In this document: positions 405-60,336 of the stretch, piece after piece
Layout of the letters: every line of letters begins with the position of its first letter
How positions within the stretch are numbered: position 1 is the stretch's first letter
DNA from: Tridacna crocea
Taxonomy: Eukaryota > Mollusca > Bivalvia > Cardiida > Cardiidae
Assembly: GCA_943736015.1 (NCBI GenBank)
Contig: OX031062.1
Coordinates: 29,547,462 to 29,611,461, forward strand
Length of the DNA: 64,000 nt
Reading direction: 5' to 3'
Made by a program: the position numbers and the translations under genes
Notes under the pieces: model-generated
Database searches by the model: none
Told to the model about the DNA's origin: nothing
Seen by the model: the letters and a program-made list of their open reading frames with translations, nothing else

Positions 405-598
405 TTAACTCTTTACCAAACGACAAAATTTTAGACTTTTCCAAATTTAAAGCATTTGCAGATTACAAAATAAATCTGACTCAAAAATTGAAAACTTGAC
501 TTTAGAAGAGTAGAAAACATTGTGGGAAAAGAACGCAATGCTTGTTACCAGCATTTTCTCCCTTTCCCACAATGTTTTCAGTGTAGTAAAGAGATAAA
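405..598 (-). repeat. h1 hairpin TTAA element, right end worn
   Basis: Starts TTAACTCTTTACCAAACGAC (405) and carries the central arms GTGGGAAAAG and CTTTCCCACAATG. One arm has drifted (GAACGCAATG), and the far end is only approximately TAA. Confidence 0.7.
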
Positions 599-642
599 CT
601 CTTTTCCATTGTATAAAATTTTGGATTTCTCCAAAATCCAAG

Positions 643-866
643 TTGACTCATTACCAAACAACCAAATTTTAGGTTTGTCCAAATTGAAAGCATTTGCAGA
701 CGACAATATAAAAGTGACTGAAATTTTGAATTTTTTTGTGAAGGATATAAAACACTGTGGGAAAAGGAGAAAATGCTGGTTACCAACATTTTCTTCTTTT
801 CCCACAATGTTTTCTACAGGCTTTCTCAGGGGCGTCAAAAGTAGGAATTGTGTGGTAATGGGTTAA
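643..866 (-). repeat. h1 hairpin TTAA element
   Basis: Near full-length h1 copy in reverse orientation ending GGTAATGGGTTAA. The left TTAA is mutated to TTGA. The core reads GCTGGTTACCAACA. Confidence 0.8.
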
Positions 867-869
867 TTG

Positions 870-1015
870 CAGATAACATATTTAACGTGGCTTAAATGGT
901 GAAAAATGGCTATGAAAAAATTGAAAAAAAAAAATTTGGGTAAAGGAGAAAATGGCAATTCTAAGTATTCTCCTTTTCCTACATTGTTTTCTCAAAAGGC
1001 TTCTTTCCGAAGTCA
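870..1015 (-). repeat. Degenerate h1 remnant
   Basis: Holds recognisable arms (AAAGGAGAAAATGG and TCTCCTTTTCCTACATTG) but no intact ends. It abuts the next copy. Confidence 0.5.
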
Positions 1016-1242
1016 TTAACCCATTATCACACAATCCCTACTTTTGACGCCCCTGAGATAGAAGCCTTCAGAAAATATTGTGGGAAAAGGAGAAAATGCT
1101 GGTTACCAGCATTTTCTCCTTTTCCCACAATGTTTTCTACCCTTCACAAAACAAATTTCAAATTTTCAATCACTTACTTTGTCGTCTGCAAATGCATTCA
1201 ATTTAGACCAGTCTAAAATATTGTCGTTTGGTAATGGGTTAA
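1016..1242 (+). repeat. h1 hairpin TTAA element, intact
   Basis: TTAA at both ends (1016 and 1239). The central palindrome around GCTGGTTACCAGC is perfect from CATTGTGGGAAAAGG outwards. This is a good reference copy. Confidence 0.9.
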
Positions 1243-1266
1243 AGGTTAGGATTGTGTGGTAAAGGT

Positions 1267-1497
1267 TTAACCCTTTTTACACAATCCCAAGTTTAAATTA
1301 CCAAGAGAAAAGAGGGCTTTTGAAAACATTGTGGGAGAAGAAGAAAATGCTGGTAACCAGCATTTTCCTCTTCTCCCATAATGTTTCCAATCTACTGAAA
1401 GACAAACACTGTAATTTGAAAAGCATTTGAAATCATCTCAGTAAATTCCTTCAATTTGACCCATGTATAAAAAGTTTACTGTGTTGTAAAGGGTTAA
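1267..1497 (+). repeat. h1 element with paired arm changes
   Basis: TTAA at 1267 and 1494. The left arm reads GTGGGAGAAGAAG and the right arm CCTCTTCTCCCAT, so both arms differ from the usual GGGAAAAGG/CCTTTTCCC in a matching way. Confidence 0.85.
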
Positions 1498-2073
1498 AAC
1501 GATGAGCACATAGCTGTTATCGGTCTAGATCTACATGTACCATGAATGTTTGTTTTATGTTTTTTGATACATCTGCAGAAGAAAAGTTGGGAAAAAATTG
1601 TGAAACTGCTTTGAAGGCAATATTTATACCCCCCCCCCCCAACTTTGTTTGCGGGGAATATATATAGGAGTCACTGTGTCGGTCTGTCAGACGGTTTGTA
1701 GCTTTTTTTGTCCACTCCATTTCGCAATAACTGCAGAGCAGATTTCTAACAAACCTCACAAGAAGTTACCCAATAGAATAAATATGTGCATATTATAATT
1801 TGTTTACAGTTTAATAATTTTCCAGTGACGGGTTTCCCTTTGTTACTCTTTTTTTTTCCAAATAGTCTTTTTTTGAAATCTTTCTTTTGTACTAAACCAT
1901 GCTTCATTCTGTAACACAGACCTGTTTTGTGACAAGGAGCTGGTGAGGGGTATGATCACGTTTAGTGATAGCTCTAGTTTTACTTGAATCAACCTCCTTT
2001 CATTGTAGTACCATTCTTCTGTTGTTTTGTTTTCGTAAAAGTAGTTTTTATTTTCAGGTAATAGGAGACTTTC
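1498..2073. other. No gene seen; C-run and low-complexity DNA
   Basis: About 575 bases between elements. It contains a 13-base C run near 1629 and several T runs. No convincing exon or repeat boundary was found. Confidence 0.4.
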
Positions 2074-2301
2074 TTAAACCCTGTACTCCATAGATACTCA
2101 TTTTTACGCATTGCTTGTAGGAGCCCTTGGAAAACATTGTGGCAAAAGGTGAAATTGCTTGTGACAAGCAATTTCACTTTTTGTCACAATGTTTTCTATG
2201 CTATCAAAAGGTGTCATATACACATAAGAAACGGCTTCATCCTTGCTGTTATTTAGGGTCATAGAGATACCATAGAAATACCTTATGGGGTAAAGGGTTA
2301 A
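2074..2301 (+). repeat. h3 hairpin TTAA element
   Basis: TTAA at 2074 and 2298. The left flank contains CTCCATAGATACTC, the core is ATTGCTTGTGACAAGCAAT, and the right flank has CATCCTTGCTGTTATTTAGG. The flanks differ from h1 but the outer arm AAAACATTGTGG is shared. Confidence 0.88.
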
Positions 2302-2335
2302 GAATCATGTAGTTGACAAGATTGTCCTTGAAAGC

Positions 2336-2564
2336 TTAACCCATTACCACACAATCCCTACTTTTGACGCCCCTGAGAAAGAAGCCTTTTGAAAACACTG
2401 TGGGAAAAGGAGAAAATGCTGGTAACCAGCATTTTCTCCTTTTCCCACAGTGTTTTCTACTCTTCACAAATCAAATTTCAAATTTTCAGTCACTTTTATT
2501 TTGTCGTCTGCGAATGCTTTCAATTTGGACCAGTCTAAAATTTTCTCGTGTGGTAAAGGGTTAA
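2336..2564 (+). repeat. h1 element, intact
   Basis: Exactly 229 bp including both TTAA sites. The arms carry a paired variant, AACACTGTGGG with CCCACAGTGTT, in place of the commoner CATTGTG/CACAATG pair. Confidence 0.9.
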
Positions 2565-2671
2565 GATTTTAAGGGTTTTTTCCCCCCATCACTGAGAGCA
2601 GCATTTTCCAATACCTTGAAATTTTGAAAACATGTTGATAATAGGAAAAAAATCATGCTAACAAGTGTTAC

Positions 2672-5011: not shown

Positions 5012-5332
5012 GAACTCTTTACCACATAACCCTGAGGTTTAATAACCCATAAGAAATAGCTATTTAGCTCTTTACCAAATGTCATAAATTTTTTAGACTT
5101 GTCCAAATTGAAAGCACTTGCAGACGACAAAATAAACGTAACTAAAAAAATGAGATTGGTTTCCAGCAGGGTAGAAAACATTGTTGGAAAAGGAGAAAAT
5201 GCTGGTTACCAGCATTTTCTCCTTTTCCAACCATGTTTTATAAAAGCCTCTCTCTCAGGGTCGTAAAAAGTCAGGATTGTGTGGTAAAGAGTTAAAAACC
5301 TTTAAAATTTTGTTGTTTGGTAAAGAGTAAAA
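5012..5332 (+). repeat. h1 remnant split by an h1 copy
   Basis: Left remnant ACTCTTTACCACATAACCC (5012) and right remnant AAATTTTGTTGTTTGGTAAA (to 5332) flank a complete reverse copy at 5063-5295. This is consistent with insertion and later loss of the host core. Confidence 0.6.
5063..5295 (-). repeat. h1 element with paired TTGG/CCAA change
   Basis: The left arm reads TTGTTGGAAAAGG and the right arm CCTTTTCCAACCATG, so a change in one arm is matched in the other. The loop is GCTGGTTACCAGC. Confidence 0.85.
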
Positions 5333-6465: not shown

Positions 6466-6896
6466 ATTACCAACAAAAAAAATTGGACTGGTCCATATTG
6501 AAAGCATATGCAGACCTAGAATTAGAAGTGTCTGGATTTATGTTGGTTGTGTTGGGGTTTAACGCCACTTTAACATCTAAGGTCATATCATGGCAGTCAG
6601 TGACGCACATGTGTTTCCTGGCTTTCTCATACCAGTACTAACACTACTTTCTTTACAAAGCCACCGACTGCTTTTCTCACATGCTTCAGCAAAGATGAGA
6701 GGGGAAAATACGCCAGAAGAAAGTTCGCCTCAACCAGATATCAAACTCACAACCACCAGGTCCTGAGTCCAACACGCTTGCCACTGAGCCACCCGGACGG
6801 GCCTGGATTTACGAAATTTGTCTCTGAAAGGGTAGGAAACATTGTGGGGAAAGGAGAAAATATTGGTTACCAGCATTTTCTCCTTTTCCCCCAATG
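6466..6896 (-). repeat. h1 element interrupted by a SINE
   Basis: The h1 sequence stops at 6540 and resumes at 6803. Joined across the SINE, the two parts read as an ordinary reverse h1 copy. The right end after the palindrome is lost. Confidence 0.8.
6541..6802 (-). mobile_element. tRNA-derived SINE with 9-bp TSD
   Basis: Flanked by direct repeats CTGGATTTA at 6532-6540 and 6803-6811. On the minus strand the head reads GGGTGGCTCAGTGGCAAGCG (A-box-like), then GGTTGTGAGTTTGATA (B-box-like), and the tail end contains GGCGTTAAACCCCAA. A second copy is at 57551-57818 and an older broken one at 57238-59214. The box positions and TSD fit an RNA polymerase III-derived SINE moved by a LINE; the LINE partner is not in the window. 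Confidence 0.88.
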
Positions 6897-6958: not shown

Positions 6959-7187
6959 ATCAACCCTTTCCCAAACAAGCCCTTGTTTTTACGTGTCTGC
7001 AGTACAAGTGTTTTGAAAACACTGTGGGAAAAGGAGAAATTGCTCGCAACGAGCAATTTCTCCTTTTCCCACAGTGTTTTTTACCCATTTGGAGAACTTT
7101 CTGCCATTTTTATCAAATTTGAAATTGCTGTCTGCAAACTATTAAAGTTTGGAAGAGTTTAAAATTTGTCGTTTGGGAAAGGGTTAA
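6959..7187 (+). repeat. h2 hairpin TTAA element
   Basis: 229 bp. Core ATTGCTCGCAACGAGCAAT with arms AACACTGTGGG/CCCACAGTG. The left site is mutated to ATCA; TTAA at 7184 is intact. Confidence 0.88.
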
Positions 7188-7395
7188 GGGAGGCTTGAGT
7201 TACCATATTCATCAATGAAGGAAAGAAAACATTGCAGGAAGAGGAGAAACGGCTGGTTACCAGCCTGTTAAAAATTTGCATTTCTACATGAAATTTGCGG
7301 ACAAAAAGGCAAGAATGACACTTAACAAATCCCCAGAGAACAATTTGTGACCCCCACCTACTTTTGGATTAACTTTTGACACCATGGCATTTAAT

Positions 7396-7622
7396 TTAAC
7401 TCTTTACCTAACGACAAAAATTGGACTAGTCCAAATTGAAAGCATTTACAGACGACAAAATAGATGTGATTCAAAGATTGAAATCTGATTTGGGAAGGGT
7501 AGAAAACATTGTAGGAAAAGGAGAAAATGCTGGTTACCAGTATTTTCTCCTTTTCCTACAATGTTTACAAGGCCTTCTTTCTCAGGGTCGTTAAAAGTCA
7601 GGATTGTATGGTAAAGACTTAA
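7396..7622 (-). repeat. h1 element with paired TAGG/CCTA change
   Basis: TTAA at 7396 and 7619. The left arm reads TTGTAGGAAAAGG (7509) and the right arm CCTTTTCCTACAATG (7549), a matched change. Confidence 0.88.
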
Positions 7623-11900: not shown

Positions 11901-14900
11901 AGGATAGGGCATCCCAATGGAATTCATGTAACGTTGCCCCTTTCATTCTACAAATTCAGGTTATCAATAACTGATGCAGAGAACCAGTATCTTTCAGCCA
12001 ATCCATTACGGATTACCCGTGTCTTAGCCAAATCAGTATGTTTTTTGGCAATGAAAGGCAATATTACAGGAATCCACATTAGGGTACCCTATCCTTAATC
12101 CTTTTCCAAACGACAAATTTTAGACTCTTCCGAACCAAAAAGTTTGCAGACAACAATTTAAGATTTGGAGAAAATGGCAGAAAGTTCATAAAAAGGGTAG
12201 AAAACACTGTGGAAAAAGGAGAAATTGCTTGTTACAAGCAATTTCTCCTTTTCCCAAAGTGTAACTTACCGTATATGCTCGACTATAAGAGTTTAACGCA
12301 TCTCCTGGAAAAGATTTTTAAGTGGCTAAATTTGAAAAAATCCTTTTAAAATACTGGTGATCAGCATGTATGTAAAATTTAATACATGTAAAAACTTTTA
12401 CAATCCACATCATTTAAAGCACAGGTTTGTTTAGGCTTAAAAGAAATCCATCTTTGTTATAGTACCTGTATATGTGATAAAGGTTGCACTCTCAACCTTC
12501 TGACTACATTAGAGACCTCATAGGCACACACACCTATGCTATTCACATTTTTTGACATTATTCTTATTTCTATCCTACAAAGAAAGTTCATGAAGGCTGC
12601 AAATTCCTGCAATCCTTGTTTCAATGAGCTCCTACCTTTTATTTGAACTTCCATTTTTTTTAATGTACACTTTTTTTTATAAACAATCTATATAGTGATG
12701 ATGATGATGATGATTACGATTGTATTTTTATGTAATAAAATTTTGTACCAAACTGTTTCTGAATTTTCGAACTTTTCAGTCATTAGTATAATTCTTGACT
12801 TACACAAGCGCTGTTAAAGCCAGTGAATAAAACAAGAATGTATTGCCAGTATTTCAAGCCACAATTTTGAATATCCTGATTTTACTATATACCGTAATTC
12901 CCCTAAGTATTCGGACACCCTAAATTTTCGGACACCATTAATTATTTTCCGAAATAATTTATTTTTTGTCCCTAAGTTCGGACACTTGGTAAAATAATTG
13001 TCCCTAAATTTTCGGACACGAAATTATGATGGTTTAGAAGACGCGCAGAACTCTACCAAACAACAAATTAAAATGATTTAAAAGTTGACGAAGACCCGCT
13101 ACACTCTTTCCCAAACAACAAATTAAAATGGTTTAGAAGTTGACGAAGACCCGCTATACTCTTTCCCAAACAACAAATTAAAATGGTTCAGAAGATCGAC
13201 GAAGGTCTGCAATACTCTTTCCCAGACAACAAATTAAAGACTCGTCCAAACTGAAAGAGTTTGCATACGACAAAGGCTTGTTTGGGATATGGTAAACTTT
13301 TACCAAACGAAAATGTTATTGGACTTGATAAAATGCAAAGGATTCGCAGACGACAACTACATTTTGCTAAAATGATTTTTGATTGGATAACGAAGAAAAC
13401 GGTGGGGGAAGAGGAGAAAATAATTAATTCCAGCGTTTTCTCCTTTTCCAACAATGCTTTCAAAAGGTTTTACCCCATGATCGTTTAAAGTCGTGATTGT
13501 GTGGTAAAGAGTTAATTAGCAAGTACCTGAGAAGAGTGAAACGATCTATGTTTTAAGCTTAAATCCTTTGTTTTGTATCTGATTGATCGCTGTAGACTGA
13601 ATGCAGGTGCTAATTTGTGTCACACAGGCTGTATATATTTAGTCCAATACCCGTGACGCATTAAAGATGTAAATCTTATCTATAAACGCTATAAGATACA
13701 CTTTTAATGCATAACGGGATGGCTAGTTGTAACGACCTGTACACAGACATGTTGGCATGGAGACAAGCACGTGTATGGGTGACGTCACCAGGTTTAGTCA
13801 GGTCAAGAATAACCCTTATCACGACCATGATTTAGGATTGTTTAGCGAAGTAACTATTTGCGTTCGAATACGTAACTGTGTGAACTCTTTTTACAAGTAA
13901 GTTTTATTAATCCATAAAGGTCAATCTCATGTCAGTTCTTTTCGGGAAATATATGCCTTACTGTATGTTGTACATACGATGTCTATTGAAGGATATGTTG
14001 TTGTTGGAAAGAGATTTCCCGAAATTTTCGGACAGTCGCACAAATAATTTAATAAGTTTTCGGACACCAAAAAAAATAATTATTTTTTTCCGTCCGAATA
14101 CTTAGGGGAATTACGGTATATAAACAGATTATGTCAAGTGAAAAAGGATAAAAAAAGAGCTTCGCAAAGTAATGCATATATGCCTAAAGGGGCTTATCAG
14201 TGAAATGGCTTAAAATCTAAAACGCCTGCAGATATCCAAATTCTAAAATTCTAACATGCACAACTACACATCATGGGATTCATTGTGGTTAGTTTGAACT
14301 TATTCCAATGAAAACTGTTGGAGGAATTGGGTGCAAAAAAAATTGCTAATGGATAGACAGAGAGGCAGATGGACAGATGACCCAGGCCATAACAAAATAG
14401 GACATTTCAGGCATATAAAAAGACTTACCGGAACTTGTTTCATGTTTGAATGACTGTCGTAGCTCCTCTAGGGTTTTACCTTTCTTATTTACTAACAGTT
14501 TCTGTTCTGCAATGCATAAAAGAATATTCAAAATATGTATCTCTACTCCACTTTGCTTTTTGATATATAGGTACAAATGTAAATTAAGAAAACATCAATA
14601 TAAGTGTTTGAAAAATCATGATCAGAAAACTATTAGAATATTTGCTATTCAATTCTCCAGTTATTGCTTTAACCCATTACCAAACAATCCCTACTTTTGA
14701 CACCCCTGAGGAGAAGCCCTTAGAAAAACATTGTGGGAAAAGGAGAAAATGCTGGTAACCAGCATTTTCTCCATTTCCCACAATGTTTTCTACCATTCAC
14801 AAAACAAATTTACATTTCGAATGAAAAGAAAATGTAATATTTTGACCTGATCATATTAAAGGTGGGTATTTAGAATTTTCACATCACACCAAATTAAGAA

Positions 14901-16593: not shown

Positions 16594-17380
16594 TCGGCCA
16601 AGTCAGTATGAGCAGTCCGTGCAGCCTCGCCTGGGCAAAACTTTTTTCGCTATCGGAAATTTTTCTGTATCTCTTTTTCGCTATAGGTAAATTTTCTGTA
16701 TGTCAAAGGACCAGTGTACATGTACTTTTATGTGATATCTTGCATGGTATCATACATCACGGAGATACATTAAGCCCCCTTTTGTCAGAGTATGGCTTTT
16801 TTTAAATAAATAAAACAAAGAATTTTCTCATATAGGAATGGTTGATAAACACGGACCCCGAGGCTACAGTATATGGTCAAATGTCTGCGACATAATCAAA
16901 GTTCTATGACCATGGTGTTGGTTTCTTTCAAATAGAGTAGAAGAGTATTTTCTGGCTTATGAATGGAAACCACCCATCTTAAACTAGTTGAATTGTCCCC
17001 TTGGTGATCTGAATAGACCGTTCGACTAGTTGTAAGTGATTCATGTTGACGTATTCACTCTTCCAGGGACTGCAAATGATCACTAACCCTTGTTGTATGT
17101 TTTTTTTTTGTTGTAGCCTATGTCGATGTAGCACAAATATAGTATTATATATGAATCTATTCAGAAGAATGAAACATATATGTACATCAACAATATAACT
17201 ACAACTACTACACTACGCAAGAAGGGTAGGGCATTGAAAGACATACATACGTCGAATCAGCGATAAACCTAACGTGTTTATGTTTTTACCTTTTCAAACA
17301 AGTTAGATTACATGTACACAACGATGGATATTTCTCACAATTTGCTAATTCTGACGAATCTGTCAAGAATCACACTTGTG
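16594..17380. other. No gene or repeat recognised
   Basis: About 790 bases. Contains a local direct repeat (TTTTTCGCTAT twice, near 16647 and 16675). No splice-bounded open frame was found on either strand. Confidence 0.4.
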
Positions 17381-18716
17381 AACAAGAGGACCATGATGGT
17401 CCAATATCGCTCACGTGAATACTAAGCAGTAAAGGTCTACAATGAAGATAATGACCAAATATTGAGGTTCAAGGGCAAATGATATTGAAACAAGAGCGGC
17501 AAATTGTCGCAATATATGCAATCCCACCGCCAGTCGTCAAGGAGATATAATAGTTGCAAAGGGCAACAATCATGTTTACCAAATCTAAAGTCAATTTGAC
17601 TTGAGACTTCAAAATTCTACACTGGACAAGCAAAAACTACAGTAAGAATGAAGATCAAAGTGAAGTTATTCAAAATCTGTGCTTGGTAGAATTATTGTCC
17701 TTGCACACGGTAATATTGCAACAAACATGCTTACCAATTTTGAAGTCGTTCTGATATGAGATGACAAAGTTATATTCCAGACAAGCAATAAATGCAGACT
17801 CATGTGAGATTTTATCGAGACAAACATTTTCTAACTAATTTTCAATTCAGCTTAGCAAAGAATGTGGTCCCTAGAGTGCTCACAAGAAGATTTATAAAGA
17901 TTTCCCTCCTTATCTGTGAAATGTGAGACCGACAACATAGGGCTAACTTTCACACCAGGGCCATAATTTGAAGTATTTTGGTAGAGGTCCACTAGATAAG
18001 CTACATGCCAAATATGAAAGCTCTAGCCCTCATGGTTTTGGACCAGAACATTTTCTTTATCGCTATGTGAAAGCTCTAGCCCTCATGGTTTGGGACAAGA
18101 AGATTTTCTTTATCGCTATGTGAAATTCGAGATCCCACAACACAGGGCCATTTTCAACTAGGGTAATAATTTGAGGTATTTTGGTAGACGGCCACTAGAT
18201 GATGCTACATGCCAAATATGAAAGCTCCTTTACCATTTGGGACAAAGAGATTTCTAAAGATTTTCTTCTTTATCTCGATGTAAAATCTGAGACCCACAAC
18301 ATAGGGCCAATTTTTTACATCAGGGCCATAATTTGAAGTATTTTGGTAGAGGGCCACTAGATGATGCTACATGCCAAATATGAAAGCTCTGGCAGTCACC
18401 ATTTCCAAGGGACAAAAAGATTTTTAAAGATTTCCTTCCCTATATCTATGTAAAACCCAAGACCATCAACAAAGGGCTAATTTTTACACCAGGGCCATAA
18501 TTTGAAGTATTTTGGTAGAGTGCCACTAGATGATGCTGCATGCCAAATATGAAAGTTCTAGATAGCCCTTACGGTTTGGGACAAGAATATTTTTAAAAAT
18601 GTCCTTCTTTATCTCTATGTGAAATCTGAGAACCCACAACATAGGGCCATTTTCAACAATAGGGCCATAATTTTAAGTATTTTGGTAGAAGGTAGACTAC
18701 GTGCTCAGGTGAGCTA
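17381..18716 (-). mobile_element. Helitron/pearl-like unit with about 165-bp array
   Basis: Inverted relative to 9057-10296: it begins on the minus strand at AGCTCACCTGAGCAC (18715) and ends with hairpin GGACCATCATGGTCC and TCTTGTT at 17381. The internal monomer, marked by CTACATGCCAAATATGAAAG (18001, 18205, 18367 and on), is unrelated to the monomer of the first unit. One segment is locally duplicated at 18021-18122. Confidence 0.75.
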
Positions 18717-19412
18717 AAAAACGATATAGCGGTAATTACTGTTACAAATAGGTCGTTCACGAATTGTCACGTGCAATGATTTCCCACTATTACGACTGGC
18801 CAGTGCCATGAGTGCATAGCGATACTTTGGTAACTTGTTTAGTGCATGTCGATAGCAAGAAGATAAGCATCGATGTGTAAATGGATTCTTGTAACAGAAC
18901 GTATATATAAAGAAAGTTCATTTTGATGAAATAAATAGGTTGTGCATAGTCTTAGCCAAGGTTGAAACAGAGGCACAAAGTGCCGATGAAGGAGCAGGGA
19001 TCGTACATGTACCCTGGTAGGAGGGAGAGGGAGTTATTTTTTTTAAAGAATAGAAGAATTCTGTATTCATAAAAGCAACAATCCAAACCAAATATTTGGC
19101 ATGAAAAGGCGTGTAGATCAAGAGAAAAATTCAGCTCATGTAGATTCTATAAGATTTTGTGATTACAACTTTGGTCAAGGAATGTCAATATCGGCTTTAT
19201 TCTTTAACATGTAGAAAACTATGAAATAGGAGTTATCTCCCTTACATTATAATTCACTCTCCGAGTTTCCTGGAGTTCCATAACTTTCTTCAGTTTTCCA
19301 ACTTCTTACAGCAAGATGGTGGTGGTAGGGCAAGCTTAAGGTAATTGATAAGCTACTTTCCTCATTTCTAAGCCACTGTTAGAAATGATTTTAATAATCC
19401 AACGGTCCCATA
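18717..19412. other. Mostly single-copy DNA; weak exon-like segment on minus strand
   Basis: At 18918-19018 (minus) a tract CTCCCTCTCCCTCCTACCAG is followed by an open frame reading GTCTIPAPSSALCASVSTLA and ending ..FISSK. It could be a last exon, but two frames are plausible and no partner was proven. Confidence 0.3.
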
Positions 19413-19639
19413 ACCTGTTACACCCACAGCAAAATTTTAGACGTATCCAAATAGAAAGCATTTGCAGACGACAATTTCAAAGTGGCTCAAATGGTGCAAC
19501 TTTGCTTTGTTAGAGTAAAAAACTTTGTAGGAAAAGGAGGAAATGCTGATTACCTGCATTATTCTTCTTTTCCCACAATGTTTTCTAAAGGCTACTTCCT
19601 CAAGGGGGTTAAAAGTCATCATTGTGTGGTAAAGGGATA
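19413..19639 (-). repeat. h1-like element
   Basis: Reverse copy with arms TTGTAGGAAAAGGAGG and TTCTTTTCCCACAATG. The ends have drifted (GATAA on the right). Confidence 0.7.
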
Positions 19640-19857
19640 AATGATGAACCCAGCAGGTAGACGGTAAATGATTGTCGTCAGCAAGTCATATTCTAAGATT
19701 CAACCTTTCTGCTTCAAGGCATTACCATCCTGTACAGAATAAACTTTAATAAATTGTTCGTAAAATAAAACTGGCTTCCAATAGAGTATCAAATGAGAAA
19801 AAAAGCTATAAACAATCAGAGGGCGTGATGGTATTCTGAATCCATTACTTTCCATTG

Positions 19858-19932
19858 AAACCCTATGTTGTGGGTATTCATTAGAATCGTCCCGATGAGA
19901 TGATTCTAATGAGTACCAACAACATAGGGTTT
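19858..19932. repeat. Imperfect inverted repeat
   Basis: AACCCTATGTTGT..ATTCATTAGAATC at the left is answered by GATTCTAATGAGTACCAACA..CATAGGGTTT at the right, with a loop of about 12 bases. Confidence 0.7.
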
Positions 19933-20022
19933 AGTGGAGCATTATCAATATTTTCAATTTTGAAATCAAAATCACTCCCTCTCTCTGGAGCTCTGAGCAA
20001 TACATCTGTGTTAAAATCTAGC
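19881..20022 (-). CDS. Candidate exon B of an unknown minus-strand gene
   Basis: Acceptor GAATGTAAAACAG at 20023. The frame continues in phase from exon A and reads LDFNTDVLLRAPERGSDFDF then KIENIDNAPLNPMLL, closing at TAA 19881-19883 or splicing at GTACTC near 19916. Its 3' part overlaps an inverted repeat. The family is not recognised. Confidence 0.45.
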
Positions 20023-20194
20023 CTGTTTTACATTCCATGTTTCATAAAATTTTTAATATTTCAAGAGGAAAAGTCTGTACAAGTACTTTTGTTTTACTGG
20101 ACATCTTTGAACAGTTTCTAAATATAGACTTTACAGAACAGGAGTCATGCAGGGTTTTTCCACAGACTTGTCAACAAGAAGTGTCCGGGCTTAC

Positions 20195-20286
20195 CCTGAA
20201 GCTATTTTCCAAGCCAATTGGTCCCTGTTTTGTAAATGAATGGTGGATAGGCTACCTACTGGCTGACCACAACTGAATGAATCATA
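20195..20286 (-). CDS. Candidate exon A of an unknown minus-strand gene
   Basis: Acceptor TTACCTAG and donor GTAAGC. 92 nt reading YDSFSCGQPVGSLSTIHLQN then RDQLAWKIASG, and joining exon B in phase across a 172-base intron. The acceptor side resembles a repeat also seen near 48698, which lowers confidence. Confidence 0.42.
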
Positions 20287-20450
20287 CTAGGTAAAGTTTT
20301 AATGTGTCAATATTTATTTTATTTTGAAATTTGAAGAAACAGCAGTGCTGCTATTTTGAAAAGTGATCTGGTTCTGTGCCCTGAATGCGCAAATTAGATA
20401 GGTCTGTACTGGAAAAATGGCACCTATCTAGAGGGAGATAATGGCTCAAT
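20262..20450. repeat. Dispersed repeat, two copies in window
   Basis: Shares ACTGAATGAAT..GTTTTA, TTGAAATTTGAA and GGGAGATAATGG blocks with 48698-48870. Boundaries are uncertain. Confidence 0.5.
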
Positions 20451-20552
20451 GATGTGTTTTTCACTATTCGCAGCTGTCTCTTCAAAGGTTATTTCATGTT
20501 TAAGATATTCTTTACTCTTTTCCAGACAACAAAATTTCACACTGGACTAAAT

Positions 20553-20757
20553 TTAACCCATTAACAAACAACACTATTTTAGACCGGTCCAAATTGAAAG
20601 CATTTGCAGACGACAAAATAAAAGTGACTGAAAATTTGAAATTTGTTTTGTGATCGGTAGAAAACATTGTGGGAAAAGGAGAAAATGCTGGTCAATGTTT
20701 TCTAAAGGCTTCTTTCTCAGGGGCGTCAAAAGTAGGGATTGTGTGGTAATGGATTAA
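20553..20757 (-). repeat. h1 element lacking one palindrome arm
   Basis: TTAA at 20553 and 20754. The left arm GGAGAAAATGCTGGT runs straight into CAATGTTTTC, so the whole opposite arm is deleted. A partial h1 end (20510-20552) precedes it. Confidence 0.85.
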
Positions 20758-20888
20758 AGCACCTTTTGCAACAATGTTTTCTATGCTATCAAAAAGTGTC
20801 ATGTACACATGAGAAACAGCTTCATCCTTGCTGTTATTTAGGGTCAATTAGAGATACCATAGAAATGCCTTATGGGAAAAAGAGTTAA
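20754..20888 (+). repeat. h3 element, left half missing
   Basis: Shares TTAA 20754 with the preceding copy. It retains only the right arm and the flank CATCCTTGCTGTTATTTAGG, ending TTAA 20885. Confidence 0.8.
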
Positions 20889-21069
20889 CCAACACTCAAC
20901 TATCAAGTAAATAAACTTAAGACTTAATTTACAGTTAAGTGAAGAATCGAACGTCTCAAGGGTATACCACCTCAATTTAAGTAAAGCTGTAATCTGTTTC
21001 AAGTGGGCCTAAGTTTACAGTGCATGAATGGCTGTTTTATAAAACTGTTTGAAGTAAAAATTTAGGTAC

Positions 21070-21195
21070 ATAGCTCTTTACTAAACAATCTTGAGTTGTA
21101 ATGACAATCAGGAAAAGGGATTATGAAAACATTGAGGGAAAAGAAAAAATGCAGGTAGCATTTTCTCCTTTTTAAGGTTATTTTAGCCAGAAGAT
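21070..21195 (+). repeat. Degenerate h1 remnant
   Basis: CTCTTTACTAAACAATC start, a shortened core AAATGCAGGTAGCATTTT, and no right flank. Confidence 0.55.
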
Positions 21196-21419
21196 TTAAC
21201 TCTTTACCACACATTCTCGACTTTTAACAACCCTGAGAAAGAAGTCTATAGAAAACATTGTGGGAGAAGGAGAAAATGCTGGTTATCAGCATTTTCTCCT
21301 TTTCCCACAATATTTTTTATCAAAGTCGGAAATCATCATATTACCAGGATTTAATTTGTTGTCTGCATATGCTTTGAATTTGGTCCAGTCCAAAAATTTG
21401 TCGTTTGGTAAAGAGGTAA
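21196..21419 (+). repeat. h1 element
   Basis: TTAA at 21196, right end drifted to GGTAA. Core GCTGGTTATCAGC with left arm GTGGGAGAAGG. Confidence 0.8.
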
Positions 21420-22183
21420 AAAAGATGGCATTGATCCAAGATCAGGCTGCACATTCTTTGCAATCTGATCTTGATCCAGTGTCTGCAATAAACAACTGAT
21501 GCATGTAGATCTACCAGCAGTTTTAGGTTTAAATCACACATAACATATTGAGGTTGCCATCAAATTTGTAAATGTGGTCCTGCATGGGTCAGTATAGAAT
21601 AATAGGACTCAAAATCAGAAGGTCAGAGGCTTGTACCTCACTAGAAGCATTTTTATTGGGTTTCCTTGACAAATACCACTTCAGCTTTCTCAACGCTTTG
21701 ATTATTGCGTGAGAGTTGCCTTGGAGAAGACAGTTTAAAGCTATAGCCTAGTACTGCTAGAATACAGGACCTAATTTGAATGTGGAGACTATTACTGTGA
21801 TATGTCTGAAATAGTGTTGAAAATGGCATAAAATACCACTCCCATCAATTAACCAATCATAGTACATGTATCAGTTAAGAGTTAGACATCAATAGGTTAG
21901 GATATGAACCCAAGCCAAGAAAGGGTAGGATTGTTGACAAAATGTGGTATGTGTACAATGAAACTGATCCTTGTGATAAAGCACTATCAAAATATTTTCT
22001 TTTTCCAAGGGTGGCAAATTTACTGTTTATGGGTTTAGGACACTTGTATTTGGGTTAATGTACCATGAAATAGAGCAGTTTGAAATTACCTATATCTTCC
22101 ACATATATATATATATGTACTAGCCGACAGTTACATCTACAAGGCATCGCTGCATGTAAATGGCACTTGCAACGGTTACAATT
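21420..22183. other. No gene; dyad repeat at the start
   Basis: 21430-21483 is the GATCAGGCTGCACA..GCAATCTGATCTTGATC dyad. The rest is apparently single-copy, with a TA repeat near 22103. Confidence 0.45.
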
Positions 22184-22412
22184 TTAACCCATTACCACAC
22201 AATCCCTGCTTTTGATGCCCCTGACAAAGAAGCCTTTAGAAAACATTGTGGGAAAAGGAGAAAATGCTGGTAACCAGCATTTTCTCCTTTTCCCACAATG
22301 TTTTCTACCCTTCACAAGACCAATTTCAATTTTTCAGTCACTTTTATTTTGTCGTCTGCAAATGCTTTCAATTTGGACAATCCTAAAATTTTGTTGTTTG
22401 GTAATGAGTTAA
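22184..22412 (+). repeat. h1 element, intact
   Basis: 229 bp between TTAA 22184 and 22409. The central palindrome is perfect. Confidence 0.92.
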
Positions 22413-22966
22413 GCCATTGCCGCACATAAATGACACTCGACATTCCTGCAAAAGAGATCTTTGAACACAGTGTTGTTAAAGAAACTATTGCGGCGTAATA
22501 CCGACAAAAGGCCCCATCTCTGTATAGTTCTATTCACATATGTGGCATTGTTTTATGAGTGAGAAGGATAGAAATTGATGAAACTTTCAGCTTCATTTCG
22601 TTGATTAATATTTTTTTTATCTATATGGAATGAATCCGTAAAAGTTTTTTTTGATGGATAATATTGGCTTTCATGGGTTTTTGTGGTACAAATGGGGAAA
22701 GTTACCAGTATCAAGCCCGAGCTGCTTGTAACAAGCAAATGGTAATTTTCCCACAATGGTTTCTGTAAAATTATAAGATATTAAATTTTTAAAAACTATG
22801 ATATTCTTCTTTGCTCTAGACTGCTTATCATGTATGTCACTTGTACAGGATTTGAGTTGGGCTAATGTTGGGTAATACTGTACTGCAATGTGTTAAGAAC
22901 TATTGTAAACTCTGTTACTTCCTTCAGACAATCAGTTCTGCACCAGCTTATGACCAAAACAATTGC
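22413..22966. other. No gene; weak hairpin remnant
   Basis: 22690-22760 carries a diverged hairpin (GCTGCTTGTAACAAGCAAAT, TTTTCCCACAATGG). Nothing else was recognised. Confidence 0.4.
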
Positions 22967-25900: not shown

Positions 25901-26281
25901 TTCTGCCTGATACTCTTCAGACTTGGTCAGAATTGTTTGTTTTGGTGATGTCTCAAAAGAGTTTGATAATGGGTAATTGTCGGGTCCAAAACTAGGTCAG
26001 TTGATGAAATCTTAGAAAAACCTTTTGTACACTGTAGAGGCCACATTTTCAGTCCAATACTCATGAAACTTGGCCAGAATGTTTGTTTTATTGATATCTC
26101 AAAAGTGTTTGATGATGGGTAATGTCTGATAAAAAACTAGGTCGCTGGGAAACTAGATGGTGCATGTTTGGTCAATAAACTCAGGTGAGCGATTTCAGGG
26201 CCATCATGGCCCTCTTGTATTTTGTTGTCTGCAAATGCTTTCAATTTGGATAGGTCTAAAATTTTGTCATTTTGTAGTGAC
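22967..26281 (+). repeat. h1 element split by the third Helitron-like unit
   Basis: The left part (22967-23125) stops at CAGGCACTTTT and the right part resumes at 26219 with ATTTTGTTGTCTGCAAATGC. This is the exact continuation of the h1 consensus, so the host sequence is undisturbed. Confidence 0.88.
23126..26218 (+). mobile_element. Helitron/pearl-like unit, 145-bp tandem array, about 20 units
   Basis: Head TAGCTCGCCTGAGCACGAAG with a TGAGCAC..GTGCTCA hairpin, then CGTCGTCCGTCGTCC. About 20 tandem monomers of 144-145 bp follow, marked by TTGGTCAGGATGTTTGTCT (23258, 23403, 23548 and on). The tail has TCAGGTGAGC, hairpin GGGCCATCATGGCCC and CTCTTGT. A 723-bp block of five monomers is duplicated (about 23400-24120 and 24123-24843), and one monomer is shortened near 24990. 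The last units are the most diverged. Long ORFs here come from the repeat period and are not genes. Confidence 0.85.
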
Positions 26282-26564
26282 TTTAGTTTGATAAACCATG
26301 GTGCCTCCCTTCGCAAGCATTGAAAAGACAAAAAGGAATTCTTTTCATAAGATTCTAAACCCCTAGGCCGTTAAGTGCCACTCAAGGGCCTTTTACAGAT
26401 AGTGTAGATTCAAGGTCAGTCTGCACAGAGCATGCAGTCTGGTCTTAGATCTAAATTGTCTGGGAGATATTTTTCTCCTAAAATCATGTAAAACGGCTTT
26501 GAAATAGTAACATTTTGGTTTTTAACCTTTTGCTATAGGCAGTAAGGTTTCAGTAGGTTATTAT
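26282..26564. other. No gene; dyad repeat
   Basis: 26399-26462 carries the GTCTGCACAGAGCATGCAGTC dyad of the short GATCAGACTGCA family. Confidence 0.5.
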
Positions 26565-26790: not shown

Positions 26791-26819
26791 TCAATTAGCA
26801 GGCTTCTTACTATATATAT

Positions 26820-27194: not shown

Positions 27195-27214
27195 AGAACC
27201 AGGCAAAACTTTAC

Positions 27215-31778: not shown

Positions 31779-31924
31779 AGGTGATGCAGAATGGACACAA
31801 AACCAGTAATTTTAAAGATTTTTGTATGATCTCTATACATGGAAGTCCTCATTATTGTTAAGGTAAGGGATTTCACTAAAACTCAGTCCTTGATCACAGG
31901 TGTGTGTCTCCGCTTTACACCCAG

Positions 31925-44654: not shown

Positions 44655-44870
44655 CTTACAAAATGACCTGGGTCATTATTCTACATAGAGAAATTACCCC
44701 AGAAGTCATTTCTATACGTAGAATAATGACATGGATCATTCCTCTACATAGAGAAATGACCCATGGGTCATCCCCCCCCACCCCCTCTACGTAAAAATAT
44801 GACCCATGGGTAATTCCTTTACATAAAGATATGACCCATGGGTCATTTTGTATGGGAGGGTAATTTCTCT
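44655..44870. repeat. Short tandem array of GACCCATGGGTCAT-type units
   Basis: AAATGACCTGGGTCATTATT, ATGACATGGATCATTCC, ATGACCCATGGGTCATCC, ATGACCCATGGGTAATTCC and ATGACCCATGGGTCATTTT recur every 40-60 bases, linked by CTACATAGAGAA-like spacers. Each unit is itself a small palindrome. Confidence 0.75.
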
Positions 44871-46611: not shown

Positions 46612-47075
46612 CTTGTTACCAAACAACATCATTTTAGACTAGTCCAAATTGGAAGCATTTGCAGACGACAAAATGAATAATATTGTCTTAAAAATTTAAA
46701 TTTCTTTTGGGAAGGGAAAAAAAACATTGCAGGAAAAGGAGAGAATGCTGGTTTCCAGCATTAAAAATTTTTCTTCTTTTCCCACAACGTTTTTAGCCCT
46801 TTACTCCATAGATACTCGTTTCTACGCATTGCTTGTAGGAGCCGTTTGAAAACATTGTGACAAAAGGTGAAATTGCTCGTGACGAGCAATTTCACCTTTT
46901 GTCACAATGTTTTCTATGCTATCAAAAGGTGTCATATACACATAAGAAACGGCTTCATCCTTGCTGTTATTTAGGGTCAATTAGAGATACCATAGAAATG
47001 CCTTATGGGGTAAAGGGTTAAAAGACTTATTTCACAGGGGTGTTAAAAGTCCTGATGTTTTTAGTTTACCAAACA
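46612..47075 (-). repeat. h1 element split by an h3 element
   Basis: The h1 sequence stops at CCCACAACGTTTT (46794) and resumes at AAGACTTATTTCACAGGGG after 47021. Confidence 0.8.
46793..47021 (+). repeat. h3 element inside an h1 copy
   Basis: Full h3 copy, core ATTGCTCGTGACGAGCAAT. Left site TTAG (mutated), right TTAA 47018. Compared with the h3 copy at 2074 the stem differs by a paired C-G for T-A change. Confidence 0.88.
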
Positions 47076-53870: not shown

Positions 53871-54110
53871 CTGTCAATTGTCGTTTTATATTGGCTTTTA
53901 TATCTTACTTATATGGAAAGAGTCCAGGCATAACTGATAAGGAAAGGAGTAAAGCGGAAAATGAGTAATGTTTGTCAGATATAAAATGTCCCATGTTAGG
54001 TTTTCAACATCCTTGTTTAACTTTTATGGTCACTTGGGGAGGAATTGAGGAATGTTAAAGGTAATCACTTTGTAACAAGTTTAATCTTTTTGTTATTTGT
54101 TTCTTAGTTT

Positions 54111-54338
54111 TTAACTTTTTATAAAATGACAAAAATTTGGACTTGACCAAATTCGCAGCATGTGCAGATGACAGAATGAATGTAGATCAAATGTTGATTT
54201 TTGTCTTTGATGGGGTAGAAAACATGGTGGAAAAAGGAGAAAATGCTGTTCACCAGCATTTTCTCCTTTTCCCACCATGTTTTCAAAAGCCCTCTTTCTC
54301 ATGGTCATGAAAACTTGAGATTATGTGGTTAAGGGTTA
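54111..54338 (-). repeat. h1 element with paired GGTGG/CCACC change
   Basis: TTAA at 54111. The left arm reads CATGGTGGAAAAAGG and the right arm CCTTTTCCCACCATG, replacing the usual ATTGTGG/CCACAAT in both arms. Confidence 0.88.
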
Positions 54339-54584
54339 GATGCCATGTAATGACAGAAATGGACAGTAAATGAAAGGGACAAAGGGTATTTAATACAAAA
54401 GCTGGTTTTGGTCGGCTACATCTAAGCATTTTTTGCAGTCTAATCATAATCTACAGTGTCTGCAACTTTGATAGGCATCCTACAGATAGGCATTTTTTCT
54501 ATGGTACAATAATTTTATTTGTCAAAATAAAATTGGCTGACTTTCATGTACATGCTGTACTATTTTGGGTGAAATCCAAGCCGT

Positions 54585-55174: not shown

Positions 55175-55625
55175 TTAACTCTTTACCAAACAAGCCCTGG
55201 TTTTTACGTGTCTGTAGTAAAAGTCTTTTGAAAACACTGCGGGAAAAGGAGAAATTGCTTGTAACGAGCAATTTCTCCTTTTCCCACAGTGTTTTCTACC
55301 CTTTTTGAAAACTTTCTGCCATTTTCTCAAAATCTAAAATTGTCGTCTGCAAACTCTTTCAGTTTGGAAGAGTCCAAAATTTGTCATTTGGGAAAGGGTT
55401 AACTCATTACCAAATGACAAAATTTTTGGATTCCGAATCGAAAGCATTTGCAGACGACAAAATCAGAGTGACTGAAAATTCGGAATTTGTTTTAGGAAGG
55501 GTAGAAAACAATGTGGGAAAAGCAGAAAATGCTGGTTACTAGCATTTTCTCCTTTTCCCACATTGATTTCTAAAGGCTTCTTTCTCAGGGTCATCAAAGG
55601 TAGGGATTGTGTGGTAAAGAGTTAA
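55175..55625. repeat. h2 then h1 element sharing a TTAA
   Basis: h2 (+) 55175-55402 with core ATTGCTTGTAACGAGCAAT. h1 (-) 55399-55625 with core GCTGGTTACTAGC. TTAA 55399 serves both. Confidence 0.9.
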
Positions 55626-57478: not shown

Positions 57479-57550
57479 CGCTGTTGTAGCAGCTTAGGTC
57501 ATATCCACGGTGGACAGTGTACCTACGCATGAGTTTCCAGGCTTTCTCAC

Positions 57551-57818
57551 CTGCCAGGGTGGCTCAGTGGTGAGCGTGTCAGACTCATGACCTGTGGTGG
57601 TTGTGAGTTTGATACCCGGTTGAGGCAAACTTTCTTTACGGCGTATTTTCCCCTCTCACCTCTGCTGAAGCATGTGAGAAAAGTAGTCGGTGGCTTTGGA
57701 AAGAAAGTAGTGTTGAGTACCGATGTGAGAAAGCCTGGAAACACGTGTGTCACCGACCACCATGATATGACCTTAGCTGTTAAAGTGGCGTTAAACCCCA
57801 ATACAACCAACCAATCAA
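57551..57818 (+). mobile_element. Younger SINE with 14-bp TSD, nested in the old SINE
   Basis: Direct repeats CCAGGCTTTCTCAC at 57537-57550 and 57819-57832. The head reads CAGGGTGGCTCAGTGGTGAG, the B-box-like part GGTTGTGAGTTTGATAC, and the tail GTGGCGTTAAACCCCAATAC. It is in the opposite orientation to the SINE it entered. Confidence 0.9.
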
Positions 57819-57891
57819 CCAGGCTTTCTCACTCCTTTACCGATACAACTTACCTTCCAAGTCACTGACTACGGGTAATTTTCTCACATGC

Positions 57892-58098
57892 TTAACCCTT
57901 TACCAAAAGACAAAATTTTAGACTGGTCTAAATTGAAAGCATTTGCAGACGACAAAATAAAAGTGACTGAAAATTTGAAATTTCTTTTGGGAAGGGAAGA
58001 AAACATTGTGGAAAAAGGAGAAAATGCTGGTGACCAGCATTTTCTTCTTTTCCGGCAATGTTTTCAGAAGGCTTCTCTCTCAGGGATTGTGTGGTTAA
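57892..58098 (-). repeat. h1 element, first of a stack
   Basis: TTAA at 57892 and 58095. Core GCTGGTGACCAGC. A short deletion removes part of the right flank (CTCTCTCAGGGATTGTG). Confidence 0.88.
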
Positions 58099-58321
58099 CC
58101 CTTTCCCAAACAAGCCCTGGTTTTTACGTGTCTGCAGTAAAAGTCTTTTGAAAACAATGTGGGAAAAGGAGAAATTGCTCGTTACGAGCAATTTCTCCTT
58201 TTCCCACACTGTTTTCTACCCTTTTTGAGAACTTTATGCCATTTTCTCTAAATCTAAAATAGTCGTCTGCAAACTCTTTCAGCTTGGAAGTGTCCAAAAT
58301 TCATCATTTGGAATAGGTTAA
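58095..58321 (+). repeat. h2 element, second of the stack
   Basis: TTAA at 58095 and 58318, both shared with neighbours. Core ATTGCTCGTTACGAGCAAT pairs perfectly. Confidence 0.9.
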
Positions 58322-58865
58322 AGGTGGCCCTTCAGATATTGGGACGAAAATTTTACAAAAATACAAAAAAATCATCCATATACTCCCAAAGCCTTATAAC
58401 TTTCATTCATTAAACCCGAGTAGTCGAAAACCATCCGACAACTAGATAAATTAGAGATTTACTACAGCCCAGGTAAACACTGGAGGGAAACACCGTCTAT
58501 TTTTACATAAACAACTCGCTCATTTACATACCGGAAATATACAGACGAAGCTTCAAACGTACCGTCCGAAGTTCTAGACATTATGGAAAATAATTACATG
58601 TTTGTTATGCTATGGAATTTAATAGTCATTAGTCACGTGTGAGTCACTTAATGTTCCCACAATGCTTTTTTTATTTTGGCGGGAAATCTGAAAATAGCTT
58701 AAGAGGCTACGTAGCCTTTTAAGGGAATACTACCAAAAAAATTTTTTTTTGTAATTTTATGATTCTTAATTACTCATGATTTGTATTGTTTGTTCATATA
58801 CATTTCAGTGACATATATTTTTTTTAATTTGGTGTGATGCGAAAATTCTAAATACCCACCTTTAA
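58318..58865 (-). repeat. E549 element, third of the stack
   Basis: 548 bp, TTAA at 58318 and 58862. Palindrome GGCTACGTAGCC near 58707. Confidence 0.92.
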
Positions 58866-58952
58866 GAGGTGAGAGGCCAAAAATCACCCCAGAGAAAGTT
58901 TGCCTCAACCAGATATCAAACTCACAACCATCAGGTCAGGAGTCAGATAACC

Positions 58953-59187
58953 TTAACCCTTTACCACACAGTCCTGACTTTTAACGATTCTGAAAGAGGA
59001 GGGTTTGGAAAACCTTGTGGAAAAAGGAGAAAATGCTGGTAACCAGCATTTTCTCCTTTTCCCACAATGTTTTCTACCCTATCAAAGGCAGAAAACATAA
59101 TTTGAGCAGCATCTTATAAAATTTTGTGGTCTGCAAGTGTTTTCAAATTGGACAAGTCCAGAATTTTGTTGTGTGGTAAAGGGTTAA
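58953..59187 (+). repeat. h1 element inside the old SINE
   Basis: TTAA at 58953 and 59184. Strong palindrome. Right flank resembles h4 (ATCAAAGGCAGAAAACAT). Confidence 0.9.
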
Positions 59188-59235
59188 ACATGAGCTACCC
59201 AGGCTGAGGGACTGCCAGATGGATGATTGACTGTA

Positions 59236-59463
59236 TTAACTCTTTACCACACACAATCCAGAGTTTTACGACCCTGGGGAAGAAGTCCTTTGAAAACGTT
59301 GGAAAAGGAGAAAATGCTGGTGACCCGTATTTTCTCCTTTTCCCACAACGTTTTCTACCAATATTACATACAGAAATGGTCTGTTTAGCTACATTCAATA
59401 TGTTGCCTGCAAATGTTTTGAATTTGGTCTAGGCCAGAATTTTGTCGTTTGGTAAAGAGTTAA
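59236..59463 (+). repeat. h1 element
   Basis: TTAA at 59236 and 59460. Left arm shortened (AACGTTGGAAAAGG) against TTTTCCCACAACGTTTT; both carry the ACG variant. Confidence 0.88.
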
Positions 59464-59524
59464 CCTCTAGATGGCTATGTACATGAGCCATGCTCTTTGA
59501 AAAGGAGTCTTCATGCATCTGCAG

Positions 59525-59634
59525 TCAGTAAAGACCTGTGTCAGGTTGTGCAGTCCACCCAAGAGCCTGAAGCACAATCTCATTTGGATTTTGCCTCCAT
59601 CATAGATGGAAAACAGACTTTATCTTATGTGCAG
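59525..59634 (+). CDS. Internal exon of an unknown gene
   Basis: Acceptor TTCATGCATCTGCAG and donor GTATCA. 110 nt, open in one frame only: SKDLCQVVQSTQEPEAQSHL then DFASIIDGKQTLSYVQ. It enters with two bases of a split codon and leaves at phase 0. It could belong with the plus-strand exons further left, but that link is not shown. Confidence 0.55.
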
Positions 59635-59674
59635 GTATCATTTTGTATCCACATCATATACTTTATTTTGTTAT

Positions 59675-60336
59675 TTAACCCTTTTCCACACAATCCCAAC
59701 TTACAACGACCCTGAGAAATAGGCTTTTTGAAAACATAGAGGGAAAAGGAGAAAATGCTAGTAATCAGCATTTTCTCCTTTTGCAACAATGTTTTCTACC
59801 CTGATGGAAGCAAATTTCAAATATTGAGTTGCGTTTATTTTGTCCTGTGCAAGTGCTTTCAGTTCGGACCAGTCTAAAATTTTGCTGTTTGGTAAAGAAT
59901 TGATTAATTCTTTACCAAACACAAAATTTTAGACTGGTCAAAATTGAAAGCATAATAGCAGATGACAAAATTAGAGTGACTCAAAAATTAATATATTTGT
60001 TTCGGGAATGATAGAAAAGGACAAAAATGTGGGAAAAGGACAAAATGCTGGTTTCTTCTTTTCCCTCAATGTTTTCAAAAACGTCTTTTCACAGAGTTGT
60101 GAAAACCTGGGATTGTTTGGAAAAGAGTTAACCCTTTACTCCATAGCTTGTAGGAACCTTTGGAAAACATTGCAGCAAAAGGTGAAATTGCTCGTGACGA
60201 GCAATTTCACCATTTGCCACAAGGTTTTCTACACTGTCAAAAGGTGTCATATACACATAAGAAACGGCTTCATCCTTGCTGTTATTTAGGGTCAGTTAGA
60301 GATATCATAGATATGCCTTATGGGGTAAAGGGTTGA
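59675..60336. repeat. h1, h1 and h3 elements end to end
   Basis: h1 (+) 59675-59903; h1 (-) 59904-60131 with much of its right arm lost; h3 (+) 60128-60336 with core ATTGCTCGTGACGAGCAAT. The last two share TTAA 60128; the outer right site is TTGA. Confidence 0.85.

Follow-up and report, generated by a model that had tools for sequence, protein, structure and literature searches.

Matched base changes in the palindromic core of TTAA-flanked miniature elements of Tridacna crocea: inheritance, CpG decay and a small in-register residue

The window analysed here is a stretch of 64,000 nucleotides of the Tridacna crocea genome (C7:29547462-29611461, in a genome of 1.05 Gb and 31 contigs) that holds many copies of short palindromic elements of three kinds, h1, h2 and h3, which are probably non-autonomous piggyBac-like TTAA miniature inverted-repeat transposable element (MITE) families. 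An initial annotation of the window had proposed that base changes in one arm of the palindrome are matched in the other, either because the arms correct each other or because an RNA hairpin is selected. This covariation is partly confirmed: it is partly real, it has largely ordinary causes, and a small residue is left. The explanation that we favour, and consider probable, is that master elements keep a paired palindrome, that copies decay independently, and that some further matched changes come from occasional template switching between the arms.

The counts show that the consensus cores of the families are nearly fully paired and that most decay in inserted copies strikes a single arm. Inherited subfamily states, CpG (cytosine-guanine dinucleotide) decay at the loop-closing pair in h2 and h3, and coincidence in old copies account for much of the co-change that the arms seem to display. 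On statistical grounds, a further few percent of the stem changes are matched in register by a process that is not independent; as to its mechanism, replication template switching or fold-back copying between the arms would be the likeliest. Better-paired copies would presumably found new subfamilies. What so far goes beyond ancestry and CpG decay is the excess of matched changes in well-paired copies, two genome-wide counts at their point estimates, and matched changes that no kin share, as in the copy L016_8211.

One-sided and matched changes in the stem

The core folds into 31 pairs with a 3-base loop (-47 to -52 kcal/mol); in our scheme for counting arm changes the 31 pairs are numbered outward from a 5-base loop. 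The same central palindrome is found in h1, h2 and h3 with different asymmetric flanks, which were modelled apart. The consensus cores of h1 and h2 differ at 3 of the 31 pairs, all three matched on both arms, and those of h1 and h3 at five pairs, four of them matched. The exception is pair 19, whose states in h3 (n=52) are G.T in 22 copies, G-C in 21, A-T in 8 and A.C in one. The tests of matched changes on both arms (hereafter doubles) used those 244 of the 354 h1 rows in which each arm has 25 or more of its 31 bases, while 251 rows served for the flank-kin tests and 201 for the regression; L001, which overlaps part of the window, was left out of the element alignments.

As a general rule, the claim that the arms change together does not hold, since one-sided changes outnumber matched ones in each family. 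In h1 (8131 cells) there are 1,111 one-sided and 109 matched changes, with 68 cells changed on both sides but unmatched; the corresponding numbers are 78, 24 and 13 in h2 (653 cells) and 92, 18 and one in h3 (1610 cells). Among 39 young h2 kin, which are 92-94% identical to the copy at 30722, we counted 47 one-sided changes and two matched ones, both at pair 1.

Frequent arm-to-arm correction in every copy, that is, concerted evolution of the arms, would agree with the lower divergence of arms than of flanks (0.096 vs 0.212 in h1; pairwise arm/flank ratio 0.23-0.83 over bins). Unbiased correction should, however, produce doubles as often as restorations, and doubles were two of the 49 stem changes among the young h2 relatives and made up about 3% at pair 17. 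Since they amount to a few percent, continuous unbiased correction cannot explain arms that diverge at 0.23-0.83 of the flank rate. Moreover, the deficit of arm variants is stronger in shared than in private variation: transition variants present in at least two copies occupy 30 of 434 arm sites vs 143 of 870 non-CpG flank sites, while private arm changes, summed over four sets, number 98 vs 141 predicted from flank rates. This greater scarcity of shared variants points to constraint on the amplifying masters. Low arm divergence was therefore rejected as proof of correction, doubles being too rare and the gap being larger in shared variation. We regard concerted correction in every copy as largely refuted and give it hardly any probability; mutual correction of the arms, as proposed, finds support only if it acts at a low rate, and not as general behaviour.

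Such a low-rate process is suggested by the number of doubles in register. With pair 24 excluded, the 244 h1 copies contain 70 doubles, whereas the column margins predict 27.8. An off-register control, in which pairs of equal consensus base were compared, gave a ratio of 1.49 and hence about 41 expected doubles, and none of 5,000 re-dealt registers reached the observed excess. A site-by-copy rate model expects 46.1 doubles. When copies are divided by their one-sided changes, 28 doubles vs 4.0 expected fall in copies with at most three, 12 vs 8.5 in those with four to six, and 30 vs 33.6 in those with seven or more; this class split is itself conditioned on one-sided changes, and stratifying by mismatch count is biased toward doubles in well-paired copies, so that off-register controls and the heterogeneity model were preferred. 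The excess is seen in transversions (29 vs 8.0 expected) and in transitions (41 vs 19.7). In 74 copies from the first search loci the transversion excess is weaker (6 vs 1.4, reached in 8 of 4000 re-deals).

A second pair counter pointed in the same direction. Applied to 100 h1 cores (92 distinct; those from the window and L009-L028, out of 143 ungapped), it returned 43 both-side cells vs 10.6 in shuffled data, with none of 500 shuffles reaching the observed value. Slid controls for the same cores gave 18-33 cells, and 14 of the 43 lie at pair 24.

Two substitutions were counted genome-wide. For A>C at pair 17, 7 places have the change on both arms with all other positions of the 57-base core intact, and 283 matches to this core are found if one mismatch is allowed. 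Among the 93 one-mismatch rows listed, out of 276, 50 are changed on the left arm only and 36 on the right only (counted twice, by eye); the rest are four doubles with an extra change, two rows with other bases at the site and one double on the other strand. Scaled to 276, this corresponds to about 148 left and 107 right changes, and doubles make up about 2.7%. Intact cores, of which there are three in 180 kb, or eight in 264 kb once the window and the stretches beside it are counted, should number about 17,000-32,000 genome-wide, and independence then predicts 0.5-0.9 doubles vs the 7 observed. For pair 23 T>G, the change carried by the copy at 54224, at least 100 perfect doubles occur among 1,671 matches with at most one mismatch, that is, in at least about 6% of changed cores; independence would give at most 17-31, a bound that leaves out second-strand matches of the doubles, even if all other matches were one-sided in equal parts. 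Both counts are weakened by the uncertainty in the number of intact cores. If this number is set to the lower 95% limit derived from eight cores, the expectations are 1.2 and up to 39 and both excesses remain; with the limit derived from three cores they rise to 4.4 and to as many as 150, and neither excess survives.

Inheritance, CpG decay and the kin of single copies

The copies in the window that bear on these questions are the following:

7398-7622 (+), h1 element; core 7502-7568, TTGTAGG/CCTACAA, pair 20 changed from G-C to A-T
54108-54342 (+), h1 element; core 54218-54284, CATGGTGG/CCACCATG, pair 23 changed from T-A to G-C; pair 18 unmatched
5066-5296 (+), h1 element; core 5174-5240, TTGTTGG/CCAAC, pair 20 G>T; unmatched at two pairs, pair 23 among them
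1268-1497 (-), h1 element; core 1322-1388, GGGAGAAG/CTTCTCCC, pairs 12 and 16; three unmatched pairs
2337-2565 (-), h1 element of the ACTGTGG (pair 24 C-G) subfamily; core 2391-2457
26967-27193 (+), h1 element of the ACTGTGG subfamily; core 27073-27139
28148-28826 (+), array of three h1 elements in the same orientation, adjacent ones with a common TTAA
30722-30952 (+), h2 element; core 30831-30895, half-changed CTTG..CGAG; 39 genome kin at 92-94% identity
58094-58323 (-), h2 element; core 58150-58216, CTCG..CGAG (two CpGs facing across the loop); CAATG..CACTG unmatched
12204-12262 (strand not assigned), h2 core; CTTG..CAAG
55175-55402 (-), h2 element; core 55230-55296
6960-7188 (-), h2 element; core 7016-7080
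2072-2302 (+), h3 element; core 2130-2196, CTTG..CAAG, G.T at pair 19
46794-47022 (+), h3 element; core 46848-46914, all paired, CTCG..CGAG
60130-60338 (+), h3 element; core 60163-60229

The strings quoted in the initial annotation at 7509, 5181, 54224, 1333, 2394 and 27075, as well as the stem variants of h2 and h3, read as stated. They are mostly correct but selected, since the same copies hold unmatched pairs that were not quoted; the copy with the core at 7502, for instance, has two besides the quoted change, and in the copy at 54224, whose CATGGTGG double recurs in none of 20 kin, pair 18 is unmatched. The statement that all h2 copies carry ACTGTGG/CCACAGT fails, because the core at 58150-58216 reads CAATG..CACTG, and pair 24 is C-G in 10 and T-A in 7 of 21 h2 rows.

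In several of these cases both arms have indeed changed, but the change is inherited. The C-G state of pair 24 (ACTGTGG) in h1 marks an inherited subfamily defined by its flanks: the 24 copies that carry it have a mean flank identity of 0.827 vs 0.685 for random copies, a value reached in none of 1000 permutations. For the TTGTAGG copy at 7509, 20 kin were compared. The right-arm T occurs in 11 of them (seven with G.T, four with A-T), and the left-arm A in four, never without the T. On the flank tree, with the query included, the left A requires two changes vs a shuffled mean of 4.7 (0 of 500 shuffles), while the right T is scattered, with eight changes vs a shuffled mean of 7.4; A G.T state is thus frequent in this kin set, and the left A seems to mark a sub-lineage. 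In L026_6158 the C-G state of pair 25 (A>C) recurs in 3 of 11 kin and in part in three others, and its right-arm G requires one change on the flank tree vs a shuffled mean of 3.9. Ancestry explains pair 24 T>C, pair 20 G>A at 7509 and pair 25 A>C.

At pair 1 of h2 and h3 the alternatives CTTG..CAAG and CTCG..CGAG, which the initial annotation had cited as matched variants, are present as described, yet they form a symmetric CpG pair, with one CpG on each side of the loop, and CpG decay explains at least part of the association. Of 40 young h2 copies, 31 are intact at pair 1, six are changed on the left, one on the right and two on both sides. In h3 the numbers are 39 intact, three left, two right and eight both, vs 2.1 doubles expected from the margins, and the left change alone is mildly clustered on flanks (19 of 500 shuffles). 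Mosaic CpG methylation as the sole cause of the loop-pair association in h2 and h3 was rejected, as copies changed on both arms are not more CpG-decayed elsewhere than comparison copies (5 of 12 vs 31 of 68 in h3, and 4 of 9 vs 59 of 148 in h2, on few sites). A composite 401-bp unit of h3, spacer and h1, suggested in 40 places by a first genome search, was also considered as an independent phylogeny; since the aligned places differ in what precedes h3 and in much of the h1 portion that follows, we took them as neighbouring insertions.

Other doubles have no such history among the kin that were fetched. L016_8211 carries doubles at pairs 17 and 20 and no mismatch, and either double is found in 0 of 20 kin with flank identity of 0.77-0.90. 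The G-C double at pair 23 of the copy at 54224 is likewise absent from its kin, at flank identities of 0.76-0.82 only, and this double stands on three flank backgrounds. At pair 18, L016_7993 differs from all five scorable of its six nearest sampled kin (0.91-0.93). L147 is unlike its kin at 0.91-0.94, and L148 is unlike its own, two of which have one-sided states; both copies were found via their core and are therefore excluded from any rate. A mixed case is L012_365, with three doubles and no mismatch; the states of its nearest fetched relative, given below, fit both copying of the left arm to the right and decay from a fully paired ancestor.

Ancestry was the condition under which the initial annotation expected its claim to fail. 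It removes much of the signal, while the in-register excess stays. A history of pure ancestry and chance, in which all doubles come from perfectly paired masters or from coincidence and resident copies exchange nothing between arms, nevertheless deserves weight. Pairs 24, 25 and 20 are inherited where examined, many kin of the 7509 copy hold the mismatched state, so that a two-step route to doubles is possible, and the genome-wide excess is unsafe at the lower intact-core limit. We consider this history unlikely, as it would have to accommodate the concentration of the excess in well-paired copies, the L016_8211 doubles and the L016_7993 state that near kin lack, and a pair 23 double on three flank backgrounds.

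A number of results weigh against rare template switching and are gathered here. Transition doubles are not in excess among the 74 copies of the first search loci (6 vs 4.2, 1142 of 4000 re-deals). In seven kin sets without their query copies, 29 of 33 doubles lie at pairs that are inherited, CpG or unresolved, leaving four at other pairs vs 261 one-sided changes. The shortfall of arm changes extends to private variants, and the genome-wide excesses vanish at the limit drawn from three cores. Of six copies picked for their doubles and compared with fetched kin, 7509 and L026_6158 have an inherited double, while 54224 and L016_8211 had no shared double. Even the kin of L016_8211 include one-sided states (a right G at pair 17 in L166 and a right T at pair 20 in L179). 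The nearest fetched relative of L012_365 (0.68) has one double in common with it, and at the remaining two pairs only its left arm is changed. For L021_6385, the pair 25 state is inherited, being present in five of nine fetched kin, and pair 20 is mixed, with a left T in three kin and a right A in one. The h3 doubles at pair 1 are without clear flank kinship (p 0.33) and without extra CpG decay elsewhere in the copy. Finally, the residual may hold many small inherited sub-lineages.

Loop changes, possible hairpin selection and proposed template switching

If the element were transcribed and its pairing kept, compensatory changes could arise through G.U. The one-sided transitions of h1 have a bias of this kind: read on the element strand, 245 leave G.T or T.G vs 188 that leave A.C or C.A (p 0.007; 20 pairs vs 9). 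In the seven kin sets 115 changes leave a wobble vs 49 that do not, and among singletons the numbers are 45 vs 32. Of 12 mismatched states common to at least three copies, 10 are G.T or T.G, one is A.C and one T.T, and G.T intermediates are present at the 7509 copy and at pair 19 of h3. The wobble test was, however, post hoc, and several of the shared states are CpG or belong to a single lineage. Counted by column, shared arm variants are nearly balanced (C>T 11 and G>A 9; A>G 5 and T>C 5), and the majority of changes stay unmatched. A search of the window against Rfam at the gathering threshold gave 0 matches. As h3 lies, by eye, in the orientation opposite to h1, transcription of a single strand would not suit every family. 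RNA hairpin selection, the second process that the initial annotation had offered, is not demonstrated and in our judgement improbable, though the wobble bias keeps it alive.

The loop offers a hint of a different kind. Its middle base in h1 changes from T to A in 32 of 56 changes vs 38% expected (p 0.003), and in h3 from G to C in 7 of 8 changes, the seven copies belonging partly to one flank clade (p 0.011). In both cases the loop centre turns into its own complement (GTTAC to GTAAC, GTGAC to GTCAC) more often than the mutation spectrum predicts, a pattern that in-place inversion of the core might leave. The h3 copies with the changed loop are L016_6093, L015_1848, L002_1685, L043_208, L040_186, L030_404 and L045_216.

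Template switch mutations create and maintain hairpins, and loop inversions are a sign of interstrand switching, according to the portions of PMC8794818 that were covered. Our rare template switching resembles the events described there in that matched changes are in register, may come several at once and run from arm to arm; that work, in the same portions, concerns reconstructed histories of RNA genes, whereas here a dispersed non-coding element is concerned whose copies mostly decay. Quasi-palindrome mutations of yeast, as presented in the covered part of PMC3820800, likewise extend the identity between imperfect arms of an inverted repeat; they were obtained in a reporter assay, while our interpretation draws on standing copies only. 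The titles and abstract openings that we searched in the open-licence literature of PubMed Central contained no report of arm co-change in MITEs.

Tentatively, then, the swarm of several hundred thousand MITE palindromes might naturally report template switching between arms in a eukaryotic germ line, although we would put this at somewhat less than an even chance. If it is true, stem changes would have been transferred in register to the facing arm, repeatedly and in copies with unrelated flanks, and the fully paired masters would come from this process too. The arm-copied share of stem changes in otherwise intact cores would be about 3% at pair 17 and at least about 6% at pair 23, and the copy number would make the rate and the tract length of arm-to-arm template switching measurable. 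Compensatory change in a hairpin is usually read as selection on RNA structure; here it occurs in a non-coding element that decays mostly freely, and its sources can be told apart as inheritance, decay of CpGs, coincidence and a small remainder. For RNA gene finding based on covariation, such elements would form a clear class of possible false positives.

The element family and its neighbourhood

In the window, 62 hairpins score at least 15 without overlapping one another, the majority with the shared palindromic core, and these hairpins are the centres of TTAA-flanked MITEs of about 230 bp. A profile search found 108 element pieces (97 h1, 8 h2 and 3 h3), 77 of them near full length, which together occupy 21,224 of the 64,000 bases, or about one third. 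Outside the window, 18 sampled 10-kb stretches (L009-L025 and L028, none adjoining the window) hold 139 pieces that cover 25,239 of 180,000 bases (14%; the sum of per-stretch values), which extrapolates to several hundred thousand pieces genome-wide. The models of the three families are 227-228 columns long, short and non-coding; the single open reading frame of at least 130 amino acids in the window overlaps an h1 copy.

TTAA is present at both ends of 73 of 78 full-length h1 copies, 7 of 7 h2 copies and 35 of 39 h3 copies. The elements most commonly start with CC or CT and finish with GG or AG. A terminal CC[C/T]T motif is named for piggyBac-like MITEs in the portions of PMC2872659 covered; it is found at the 5' end of 7 of 7 h2 copies, at least 30 of 39 h3 copies and at least 9 of 78 h1 copies, among which the commonest 5' ends are CTCTTT (20) and CTCATT (19).

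The same portions of PMC2872659 describe CMITE, a group of piggyBac-like MITEs of corals of about 100 bp with an estimated 1,600 copies or so. Our elements share with it the TTAA target duplication, ends such as CCCTTTCCC, tandem arrays, and an organization into several families that have different ends and a more conserved common internal region. This architecture is present here, as the internal region is more conserved between h1, h2 and h3 than the remainder. They differ in their length of about 230 bp and in the several hundred thousand extrapolated pieces, and the internal region common to the families is a palindrome here, none being mentioned for CMITE in the portions covered. Kolobok transposons also have TTAA target duplications, with ends of the form 5'-RR..YY-3' (PMC9587614, covered in part). 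A Kolobok MITE was considered for the former likeness and rejected, as the ends found here begin with C and finish with G.

Many elements lie close together. In the head-to-tail trio of h1 elements at 28148-28826 (+), a single TTAA is common to adjacent members, and many further elements in the window abut within a few bases.

Other repeats are present as well. Two copies of another dispersed repeat, in opposite orientation and with GGTGGCTCAGTGG-type sequence, were seen by eye at about 6540-6800 and 57540-57830; it may be similar to a tRNA-derived short interspersed element. An unrelated repeat of about 540 bp has two copies, similar by eye, near family elements at about 30050-30570 and 58325-58865. 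Hairpins of unrelated sequence at 19858-19932 and 44672-44730 possibly belong to other MITE families.

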